The translations under genes were made by a program, and so were the position numbers. DNA of 64,000 nt. Source: Glycomyces lechevalierae (GTDB lineage Bacteria > Actinomycetota > Actinomycetes > Mycobacteriales > Micromonosporaceae). Location: NCBI RefSeq assembly GCF_027622945.1, contig NZ_JAPZVQ010000012.1, forward strand, positions 1 to 64,000, read 5' to 3'. Below, piece after piece: positions 61,701-64,000 of the stretch (positions are counted from its first letter, which is position 1; each line of letters opens with the position of its first letter). The notes under the pieces are model-generated. The model was not told the origin of the DNA and searched no databases. It saw nothing but the letters and a program-made list of their open reading frames with translations.

Positions 61701-62339
61701 ATGACGAGCATCCGCGACCAGTACCTCACCGCCGCCCGCACGGCCCTCGCCCTCGCCGAGGACGACGCCGTCGCCAAGGCCTGGACCGGGCCCTCCGCGC
61801 TCACCGGCTTCACCGTCGGCGGCCTCGCCGCGCACCTGCTGCAGCAGATCACCTCCGTCACCGCCGGCCTCGCCGCCGACCACGCCGGCAAGGAGACCGT
61901 GGGCCTGTTCGAGCACTACGACCGCGCCGCCTGGCTCGCCGCCGACGTCGACAACGACTACAACACCGGCATCCGCGAAGGCGGCGAGCGCGCCGCCGAA
62001 GCCGGACCCGCGACCGTCCTCGCCGAAGCCGCCGCCGCGCTCTCGGCCCTCGAGACCGCGCTCGCGGCCATGGACGGCACGGAGACCTCCGGGAACACGC
62101 GCTGGCCGTACGCGATGACCCTCGACGACTTCCTGTGCACGCGTCTGATGGAGATCGTCGTCCACGGCGATGACCTCGCCTGCTCGGCGGGCGTCGACAC
62201 GCCCGTGTTCGACCAGGACGCGTTCGACACGGCCGCGTGGATGCTCGCGCGGCTCGCCGTCAAACGCCATGGCCAGGCGAATCTGGTGCGTGCCCTCGCC
62301 CGCTCCGAGCGCGCCCCCGCGTCGATCAGCGGCCTGTGA
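61701..62339 (+). CDS. maleylpyruvate isomerase/DinB-like family protein
   Basis: A 212-aa protein of the mycothiol-dependent maleylpyruvate isomerase N-terminal (DinB-like) family, an actinobacterial group. Four-helix-bundle pattern with possible metal His residues (GGLAAHLLQQ, EIVVHGDDLA). The ATG lies 7 bp after the preceding stop codon. The true substrate is unknown. Confidence 0.8.
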   Translation: MTSIRDQYLTAARTALALAEDDAVAKAWTGPSALTGFTVGGLAAHLLQQITSVTAGLAADHAGKETVGLFEHYDRAAWLAADVDNDYNTGIREGGERAAEAGPATVLAEAAAALSALETALAAMDGTETSGNTRWPYAMTLDDFLCTRLMEIVVHGDDLACSAGVDTPVFDQDAFDTAAWMLARLAVKRHGQANLVRALARSERAPASISGL

Positions 62340-62379
62340 GACCGGTCCCGGGTCGTGGCCGCGGCCCGGGAGCCTGTGG

Positions 62380-62385
62380 TACGGT
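62380..62385 (+). promoter_or_regulatory. -10 box for the DAHP synthase leader
   Basis: TACGGT, 7 nt before the ATG of the leader peptide, so the leader peptide itself would be translated leaderlessly. Confidence 0.45.
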
Positions 62386-62392
62386 TCGCCCC

Positions 62393-62464
62393 ATGTCTAC
62401 GGCAGTTCGTGGTTATTGGCGCTTTACGCCGGCTCCGGGTGGAGCCCGGCGGCGCACGCGCTGA
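62393..62464 (+). CDS. aromatic-amino-acid leader peptide, 23 aa
   Basis: The peptide MSTAVRGYWRFTPAPGGARRRTR contains Tyr, Trp and Phe within four codons (TAT TGG CGC TTT, codons 8-11). That is the signature of a translational sensor for all three aromatic amino acids. It is followed by alternative hairpins and a terminator, and then by the DAHP synthase gene. Ribosome stalling at these codons would change RNA folding and let polymerase through. The composition and position make coincidence unlikely. Confidence 0.85.
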   Translation: MSTAVRGYWRFTPAPGGARRRTR

Positions 62465-62515
62465 CCGCAGAACACACCCGGAGCCAACAAGGCAGCGACA
62501 CCAGTCGCTGCCTTT
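62429..62515 (+). promoter_or_regulatory. transcription attenuator of the DAHP synthase gene
   Basis: GGCTCCGGGT (62431-62440) can pair either with GGAGCC just after it (hairpin about 62429-62452) or perfectly with ACCCGGAGCC (62476-62485). The terminator stem AAGGCAGCGAC / GTCGCTGCCTTT (62489-62515) follows, ending in TTT. This is the arrangement of mutually exclusive helices expected for leader-peptide attenuation. Confidence 0.8.
62489..62515 (+). terminator. attenuator terminator
   Basis: An 11-bp stem with loop ACCA, ending in CCTTTC. It lies 80 bp before the DAHP synthase start. Confidence 0.8.
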
Positions 62516-62595
62516 CGTCGTCAGGCGGGCCGGCACCGGGGGAGACCACGAGTGGACAGGACCCGCCTCGCAACCAGAGATGGGAACCGCACCCG

Positions 62596-63669
62596 ATGAG
62601 CACGCCCGCCGATCGTTCGCCGCAGACCAACGACCTGCGCGTCACCTCCTTCCAGCCGCTCGTGGCCCCGGCCGTCCTCCGCGCGGAGCTGCCGCTCGGC
62701 CCAGAGCGTTCCGCCCTGGTCGAGCGCACCCGCCGCGAGGTCAAGCACGTCCTCGACGGCACCGACGACCGCCTCCTCGTCGTCGTCGGCCCCTGCTCGG
62801 TGCACGACGCGGCCGCCGCGAAGGACTACGCGCAGCGTCTCGCCGCCGCCGCGGCCCCGCTCGGGGACGCCCTCATGGTCGTCATGCGCGTGTACTTCGA
62901 GAAGCCCCGCACCACGGTCGGTTGGAAGGGCCTCATCAACGACCCGCACCTCGACGGCACCCACGACGTGGAGCTGGGTCTGCGCCTGGCCCGCCGCGTC
63001 CTGCTCGACGTGCTCGACACGGGCCTGCCGGTCGGCTGCGAGTTCCTCGAGCCGACGAGCCCGCAGCACATCGCCGACGCCGTCTCGTGGGGCGCGATCG
63101 GCGCCCGCACCACCGAGTCGCAGGTGCACCGCCAGCTCGCGTCGGGCCTGTCGATGCCCGTCGGGTTCAAGAACACCACCGACGGCGACCTGACCTCCGC
63201 GATCGACGGCTGCCGGGCCGCCGCCGGTGACCACGTGTTCTTCGGCGTCGACGAGGACGGCCGCGCGTCGATCGTCTCCACCAGCGGCAACCCCGACTGC
63301 CACATCATCCTGCGGGGCGGGCGCGGCGGCCCCAACTACGGGCCCGAGGACGTGCGCGACGCGGTCGGCCTGCTCGCGAAGCACGGCATGCCGCAGCGGC
63401 TCGTCGTCGACGCGAGCCACGCCAACTCCGGGAAGGACCACGTCCGCCAGGCCGAGGTCGTGCGCGAGGTCGCCGCGCGCATCGGCGCGGGGGAGCAGGG
63501 CATCGCCGGTTTGATGATCGAGAGCTTCATCGAGCCCGGCCGCCAGGAGCCCGGCCCGCTCGACACCCTCGCCTACGGCAAGTCCGTGACCGACGCCTGC
63601 GTCGGCTGGGACGAGACCGCGGCGCTCCTCGGCGAGCTCGCCGACGCCGTCCGCCGGTCCCGCGCCTAG
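62596..63669 (+). CDS. aroG: 3-deoxy-7-phosphoheptulonate (DAHP) synthase, class I
   Basis: A 357-aa class I DAHP synthase joining PEP and erythrose 4-phosphate, the entry step of the shikimate pathway. It has VVVGPCSVHD, VVMRVYFEKPRTTVGWKGLINDPHLDGT, GARTTESQVHRQLASGLSMPVGFKN and VDASHANSGKDH, and metal ligands in the GPCSVHD, SHAN and IESF regions. The ATG at 62596 has only a weak GATGGGAA site. It is controlled by the upstream YWRF attenuator. The allosteric type cannot be read from sequence; the symbol is by family. Confidence 0.94.
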   Translation: MSTPADRSPQTNDLRVTSFQPLVAPAVLRAELPLGPERSALVERTRREVKHVLDGTDDRLLVVVGPCSVHDAAAAKDYAQRLAAAAAPLGDALMVVMRVYFEKPRTTVGWKGLINDPHLDGTHDVELGLRLARRVLLDVLDTGLPVGCEFLEPTSPQHIADAVSWGAIGARTTESQVHRQLASGLSMPVGFKNTTDGDLTSAIDGCRAAAGDHVFFGVDEDGRASIVSTSGNPDCHIILRGGRGGPNYGPEDVRDAVGLLAKHGMPQRLVVDASHANSGKDHVRQAEVVREVAARIGAGEQGIAGLMIESFIEPGRQEPGPLDTLAYGKSVTDACVGWDETAALLGELADAVRRSRA

Positions 63670-63677
63670 ACACACCG

Positions 63678-63714
63678 GAAAGGGGCCCGCAGCGTGACGC
63701 TGCAGGCCCCTTTC
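63678..63714 (+). terminator. terminator after the DAHP synthase gene
   Basis: GAAAGGGGCC pairs with GGCCCCTTTC around an inner GCAGCG-TGA-CGCTGC helix, followed by T-rich sequence. Confidence 0.85.
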
Positions 63715-63755
63715 TCCTTGCACGGCTGCGTTTTCCACGAGCCGCTTTCCACGAG

Positions 63756-64000
63756 CTAGGCGATGCGGATGGTGTTCCAGCTCATCGCGGGCAGCTCCAC
63801 ATAGGCCACGCCGTCCTTGACGGTGATGTCGCCGTTGGCGACCGGGGCCACGCGGGTCGGCTCGGCGAGGGTGTTCTTCGCGTCCGGGTCCTCGTCGGTG
63901 AGCGTCGAGCAGGTCAGGTCCGACAGGCCGCCGAGCGAGCCGAGGTCGATCTCGAGGGTCAGCGGCGACTCGAGGTCGCGGTTGACGGCGAACACCGTGA
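63756..64000 (-). CDS. alpha-L-arabinofuranosidase (GH51-type), C-terminal part
   Basis: Only the last ~81 residues are inside the window; the gene starts beyond the right edge. The sequence (VFAVNRDLESPLTLEIDLGSL..., ending ELPAMSWNTIRIA) matches the C-terminal beta-sandwich domain of GH51 arabinofuranosidases, with the closing PAMSWNxIR motif. Together with the GH43 gene at 50206 it suggests use of arabinose-containing polymers. It is convergent with the DAHP synthase gene. Confidence 0.85.
   Translation of the reverse strand, partial: TVFAVNRDLESPLTLEIDLGSLGGLSDLTCSTLTDEDPDAKNTLAEPTRVAPVANGDITVKDGVAYVELPAMSWNTIRIA

Follow-up and report, generated by a model that had tools for sequence, protein, structure and literature searches.

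A widely conserved regulatory leader, real and of a kind already known, precedes the class I DAHP synthase gene in the Glycomyces lechevalierae window (the window being the whole stretch of 64,000 nucleotides that was analysed). Judged by its sequence, the Glycomyces leader is filed as belonging to the AroR kind, known from Corynebacterium, and the switch is probably tuned mainly to phenylalanine. We consider it fairly probable that it works as a ribosome-mediated attenuator, related to AroR, that raises expression of the class I DAHP synthase when charged aromatic tRNA is short. The sensor half of this switch is well supported, the output half is not. The elements on which this reading is built, together with the neighbouring genes, are placed in the window as follows.

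61701–62339, upstream gene: ORF with a mycothiol maleylpyruvate isomerase N-terminal domain (domain match)
62380–62385, plus strand: −10-like box TACGGT, 7 nt 5' of the leader start and with TG one base upstream, a predicted leaderless promoter
62393–62464, plus strand: leader peptide ORF MSTAVRGYWRFTPAPGGARRRTR with its stop, read from the sequence (ATG at 62393, 23 aa)
62414–62419, plus strand: leader codons Tyr UAU (62414–62416) and Trp UGG (62417–62419)
62423–62425, plus strand: Phe UUU, the last aromatic codon and candidate main sensor, from codon conservation among loci
62431–62441, plus strand: segment B1, GGCUCCGGGUG, inside the ORF and 8 nt 3' of the first base of UUU; pairs with C, with compensatory changes in related loci
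62475–62485, plus strand: segment C, CACCCGGAGCC, with its GAGCC core, 3' of the leader stop; from the conservation of GAGCC
62489–62514, plus strand: terminator-like hairpin T, 11 bp, from folding (shuffle control for the window only)
62524–62543, plus strand: segment D (approximate), partly complementary to C, with weak evidence from C:D complementarity above control
62596–63669, plus strand: class I DAHP synthase (AroF/G/H type; TIGR00034, NF009395, PF00793), the presumed regulated gene aroG
63756–63998, minus strand: alpha-L-arabinofuranosidase gene, convergent with aroG (PF06964)

The leader ORF sits between the isomerase-domain ORF and the DAHP synthase, which is 93% identical to the Glycomyces niveus enzyme (among the matches listed, best 80 of 585). 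The region originally noted starts with the −10-like box at 62380, the leader ATG itself being at 62393. That an aromatic leader of 23 residues, with Tyr, Trp and Phe, precedes a DAHP synthase had been proposed in the first-pass annotation and was confirmed from the sequence; one Arg codon separates Trp UGG from Phe UUU. The spacing of the box predicts that the leader transcript starts at or very near its own AUG, in line with the earlier suggestion that the peptide is leaderless. A second DAHP synthase, of class II, is encoded in the same genome (5.6 Mb), and no leader obeying the rule described below was found before it. A 5S rRNA gene (RF00001) lies at 160–276 of the window.

Folding of the window leader revealed an 11-bp helix, B1:C, between the leader ORF and the sequence past its stop. 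The stretch 62426–62487 folds at −36.5 kcal/mol (z −3.9, with 1 of 200 shuffles equally good), and 62488–62520, which contains hairpin T, folds at −20.3 kcal/mol (z −6.0). By folding T is strong, and it is followed by the tail UUUCGUCGU, which is not a U-run. The generic scans matched neither a promoter at the window leader nor a terminator within it, probably because this tail replaces the U-run and because no good −35 element stands 5' of the −10-like box. The same terminator scan also overlooks a very stable hairpin 3' of aroG (63677–63715; −32.6 kcal/mol, z −5.6), which may terminate both aroG and the convergent alpha-L-arabinofuranosidase gene. No Rfam match was obtained over 62300–62700 at E ≤ 1.

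Loci for comparison were taken from relatives (an enzyme match in 30 of 61 genomes) and from named genomes (best 80 of 585 confirmed matches), giving 110 loci (L001–L110), of which 107 are distinct once L031, L032 and L033, repeats of L004, L019 and L017, are dropped. A leader was called where a short ORF with clustered aromatic codons lies behind a −10-like box, a box distance of 4–9 nt being a condition of selection. By that rule it is present in 81 of the 107 distinct DAHP synthase loci and in all 19 Glycomyces loci carrying the gene; three of the 22 same-genus genomes, the window's own included, gave no enzyme match, and one of these three is 92% complete. Among the matches listed, the leader-bearing genera are Mycobacterium, Mycolicibacterium, Nocardia, Rhodococcus, Gordonia, Dietzia, Tsukamurella, Williamsia, Corynebacterium, Amycolatopsis, Pseudonocardia, Saccharomonospora, Micromonospora, Phytohabitans, Kribbella, Streptomyces, Isoptericola, Cellulosimicrobium, Microbacterium, Arthrobacter and more. 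The 26 loci lacking it (L027–L030, L045, L046, L050, L056, L060, L062, L063, L066, L071, L072, L074, L075, L080–L082, L085, L087, L088, L092, L102, L107 and L110) include Bifidobacteriaceae, Nocardiopsis, MAGs and other phyla; by eye, L027–L029 lie behind carrier-protein-like sequence, and L050, L063 and L071, which satisfied the mechanical rule with unrelated ORFs, were excluded by eye, likewise the second ORF of L020.

The 81 leaders represent 76 distinct peptides, and counts over loci refer to related rather than independent sequences. A TANNNT box stands 6–8 nt before the leader start in 81/81 loci, with three occurrences in all at other distances between 0 and 34 nt; its presence is partly built in by the 4–9 nt selection, the sharper 6–8 nt spacing is not. 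TG is found one base upstream of the box in 52 loci. The GAGCC motif occurs within 60 nt after the leader stop in every one of the 81 (against 15% of shuffles). Twenty loci were set apart as type II by a sequence rule and all others, the window among them, were called type I (61 loci).

A covariance model was built from 37 of the 61 type I leaders (alignment A2) with nothing of the enzyme included; it holds only 9 pairs because MAFFT misaligned many of the T hairpins in A2. The model matches 51 of 296 class genomes at E ≤ 0.01, with a single match per genome in 49. Its best 30 loci, one of which is the window itself and part of the model, all have an adjoining DAHP synthase and a leader of the same promoter spacing. 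Locus L133 is probably a repeat of L043. No NCBIfam family was found for the five leader peptides searched. A literature search, with limited coverage of subscription papers, found no description of such a leader outside Corynebacterium, and PMC1262725, in the part covered, lists for Actinobacteria candidates at Trp, Cys and Leu genes together with ileS T-boxes, and none seen for other amino acid pathways.

A closer look at the codons shows that the strongest constraint in the leader falls on the last aromatic one, which is Phe in 78 of the 81 loci and Tyr in three. This Phe codon is UUU in 78/78, compared with 10 of 30 for the other Phe codons of the same leaders and 11 of 543 (2%) for those of the DAHP synthase genes, and UUU is again the last aromatic codon in all of 29 further leaders. 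Tyr is written UAU in 83 of 90 leader codons vs 4 of 403 in the DAHP synthase genes. Selection to keep the 5' end free of structure could account for some of this use of U-ending codons, but hardly for the contrast between the last Phe codon and the earlier ones. The comparison of related genomes suggested at the outset thus found the aromatic codons conserved, and the contrary outcome, no conservation, did not occur.

The further proposal that one leader senses all three aromatic amino acids is unproven. Tyr, Trp and Phe are all represented in the peptides of 73 of 81 loci and of 18 of the 29 further leaders; Trp is absent from 4 of the 19 Glycomyces leaders and from 11 of the 29. Besides, Phe is the predominant last aromatic residue, folding predicts opposite effects for the first and the last aromatic codon (see below), and the Corynebacterium counterpart operon is described as answering Phe limitation and not Tyr (as summarized in review PMC11802643). 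Within family f34, among the best 30 model loci, 11 of 19 leaders (L114, L116, L118–L124, L129 and L136) are without any Trp, most of them close to RRYPYFAQAPGGAG.

The two types differ in what follows the leader. In type I loci a separate hairpin T comes after C, and a perfect stem of at least 8 bp lies near C in 59 of 61. In type II, a different layout behind the same leader seen in Nocardia, Rhodococcus, Amycolatopsis, Pseudonocardia and their allies (L026, L048, L049, L052, L061, L064, L065, L068, L069, L070, L073, L076, L077, L079, L083, L084, L091, L093, L098 and L101), C forms a hairpin with the next segment, without a U-run, and the separate T is absent. The B1:C duplex has a mean z of −5.7 in Glycomyces and −4.4 in the other type I loci, vs −0.9 and −0.7 with C reversed. 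Over 25 distinct B1:C pairs, in which the pair types vary at positions 6, 9 and 10, B1 makes 9.48 of 11 pairs with its own partner, 8.58 with the C of another locus and 7.34 with a shuffled C. In type II the helix is unsupported (z −1.4 vs −1.0 for the control; 8.00 pairs with the own and 8.09 with a swapped C). The arrangement noted in the window is more than chance: in related loci the leader comes back together with its −10 box, with the GAGCC core and with UUU as the final aromatic codon.

The effect of a ribosome on these pairings was modeled by masking, the ribosome footprint being represented by covering bases up to 12 nt away from the first base of the codon in the A site; the foldings are equilibrium ones, without steric or kinetic terms. 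The mean probability of B1:C over the 61 type I loci is.52 with no ribosome; it is.97 when the first aromatic codon occupies the A site,.27 when the last one does, and.91 for a ribosome at the stop. The corresponding values for the full leader of the window, in this order, are >.99, >.99,.20 and >.99. In 79 of 81 loci B1 comes 7–10 nt after the opening base of the last aromatic codon, so that a ribosome at this codon covers a few B1 bases and one at the window Tyr codon does not. A Phe-gated helix is predicted on this basis, with a different effect of Tyr and Trp, in agreement with the response of C. glutamicum aroF to Phe and not Tyr reported in the review (PMC11802643).

In the mechanism that we favour, the transcript would begin at or near the leader AUG and a ribosome would load on the leaderless ORF. 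With fast translation, B1:C would form after the ribosome departs, T would follow and most transcripts would end there. When charged tRNA-Phe is short, the ribosome would wait at UUU with its footprint extending into B1, and the opening of B1:C by the waiting ribosome would free C and favour aroG expression. For the Tyr and Trp codons, which precede UUU by 9 and 6 nt, the prediction is a different or a weaker action. The sequence comparison supports the leader, the −10 spacing, the UUU, the B1:C helix (type I) and T; we infer in which direction the control works, how B1:C leads on to T or to aroG translation, and which amino acids matter. The attenuator transcripts reported at C. glutamicum aroF (per the available text of PMC4046766) favour termination as the output.

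A textbook antitermination switch, which we regard as unlikely, would work in the other sense: a stall at Tyr or Trp would let B1:C form as the antiterminator (ON state), and translation to the stop would hinder C and lead to termination. It would fit the B1:C probability, which peaks for a ribosome on the first aromatic codon, the position of the C core 11–23 nt past the leader stop in 78/81 loci, so near that a ribosome on the stop codon would reach up to C, and the type II layout, in which C is the 5' arm of the next hairpin and B1:C and that hairpin are mutually exclusive. In type I loci, the window included, B1:C and T however have no bases in common, and T keeps a mean probability of.95–.97 in the four ribosome states over the 61 loci (lowest single locus.72); the type II hairpin, for its part, has no U-run. 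The conserved last Phe codon would moreover oppose such a switch, contrary to the Phe response that the partly available sources report for AroR. No upstream partner for the 5' arm of T was found above chance (mean z +0.59 over the 61 type I loci), and the values for its 3' arm against the upstream leader are mixed, about −1.3 in many Glycomyces and positive in many others. A textbook antiterminator is not supported by these foldings: of the alternative pairing segments and terminator first claimed, the helix and a terminator-like hairpin hold, and the segment competing with the terminator 5' arm does not. Membership among the classical attenuators is not claimed, because a competing antiterminator was sought and was not found. 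A kinetic version, with the 5' arm of T pairing upstream before its 3' arm is made, was also rejected, as it gives.25 at Phe vs.58 at the stop, the wrong sense, and that upstream pairing is at chance level.

Control at the level of translation is likewise improbable. Here stalling would rearrange the leader, through C:D pairing or the loss of long-range pairing, and alter ribosome access to the aroG start, T being unregulated or structural. The C:D complementarity is modestly higher than its control in each group (in Glycomyces the mean z is −1.8 vs −0.5 with C reversed, in the other groups −1.9 vs −0.5 and −2.4 vs −0.8; p < 0.05 in 6 of 19 Glycomyces, 20 of 42 other type I and 15 of 20 type II loci), but the C:D probability in the window itself is at most.06. 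In the window, the predicted Shine-Dalgarno accessibility increases from.33 to.58 on a stall at Phe (.52 at Tyr), which makes this explanation slightly likelier and the attenuator slightly less likely; on average over the 61 type I loci it hardly responds (.40 free vs.43 stalled, with a rise above 0.1 in 10 loci and a drop in 2). Against it stand also the D:E pairing, which is at chance in Glycomyces (z +0.7), and the weak structure of the region after T and near the aroG start (mean z −0.4 to −1.0). One engineering paper, in the part available, terms AroR a translational regulatory leader peptide. A chain of B1:C, C:D and D:E pairings sequestering the Shine-Dalgarno sequence was rejected on the little mean change under the ribosome masks and the chance-level D:E. 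Finally, it is very improbable that the leader is just a short ORF arising by chance in a GC-rich sequence, with a hairpin that does no more than terminate the upstream gene 61701–62339: the generic scans do score neither promoter nor terminator, but the peptide, the −10 spacing, the choice of UUU and the pairing recur beside DAHP synthase over many genera.

The attenuator proposed here resembles E. coli trpL and pheL, with their control codons, alternative pairing and terminator, in that the window leader ORF carries regulatory codons; it differs in that no segment pairing to the terminator 5' arm was found. Closer is AroR of C. glutamicum, which in the accounts available (PMC4046766 and PMC11802643, citing Neshat et al. 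2014) has the residues Phe-Tyr-Phe and precedes aroF, the gene for one of two DAHP synthases. Both are short aromatic leaders 5' of one of two DAHP synthases, Glycomyces too having its class II enzyme, and differ in their aromatic residues, the window leader reading Tyr-Trp-Arg-Phe. The C. glutamicum locus itself was found in none of the 401 genomes searched, and homology to AroR is therefore argued through other Corynebacterium loci. In Corynebacterium ulceribovis and C. amycolatum (L054 and L109) RFYF leaders with the −10 box and the GAGCC core precede a DAHP synthase (in L109 the perfect stem located by the hairpin finder has only 5 bp). The RNA model is weak in a Corynebacterium-type genus, with matches in 14 of 151 genomes at E ≤ 0.1; of 20 weak model loci there, 13 have no DAHP synthase or leader and seven are further RFYF-type loci with the −10 spacing and GAGCC, the genus being probably Corynebacterium, judging from a near-identical match to the leader of C. 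amycolatum. The assignment to the AroR kind follows the Phe/Tyr leader ORF directly 5' of a class I DAHP synthase and the parts in common with these loci (−10 spacing, GAGCC core, aromatic leader and following hairpin).

The first-pass view that a leaderless leader peptide is unusual is not borne out. Reports of such peptides exist for S. lividans (TrpL1, LeuL1, LeuL2 and IlvL; PMC8079986, as far as its available text goes) and for ilvB of C. diphtheriae (from a partly available source). The S. lividans leaders also have a leaderless ORF, hairpins and an amino acid gene downstream; the eight named in that text (two Leu, two Trp, Ala, Ile, Met and Thr) differ in that none belongs to a DAHP synthase. 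In the genome of the window, moreover, a trpE-like gene has a leader that is predicted from its sequence to be leaderless. This is a 12-aa ORF, MRIHARNWWWRR, 5' of a chorismate-binding gene (L141; leader start at locus base 648), with −10 box TAGTAT 7 nt before the start. It resembles a classical Trp leader and has the same promoter spacing as the window leader, with three Trp codons and no Tyr or Phe as the difference. The trpE-like ORF spans 746 aa from base 703, its true start being probably later.

A regulator described in one Corynebacterium species is in this way extended to many Actinomycetes, and the switch sits at the entry step of the pathway to the aromatic amino acids and to many antibiotics. 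What stands out is the breadth of occurrence, a synonymous codon, UUU, fixed in GC-rich genomes, and the missing antiterminator. A bolder reading, which we hold as doubtful, is that of an ancient leaderless Phe-gated switch across Actinomycetes, in which the near-invariant UUU would be the sensor, stalls at Tyr and Trp would act oppositely on the same helix, and the terminator would be controlled without antiterminator base-pairing. Two points that can be tested are raised by these leaders: why UUU is kept, and how they act without a visible antiterminator.
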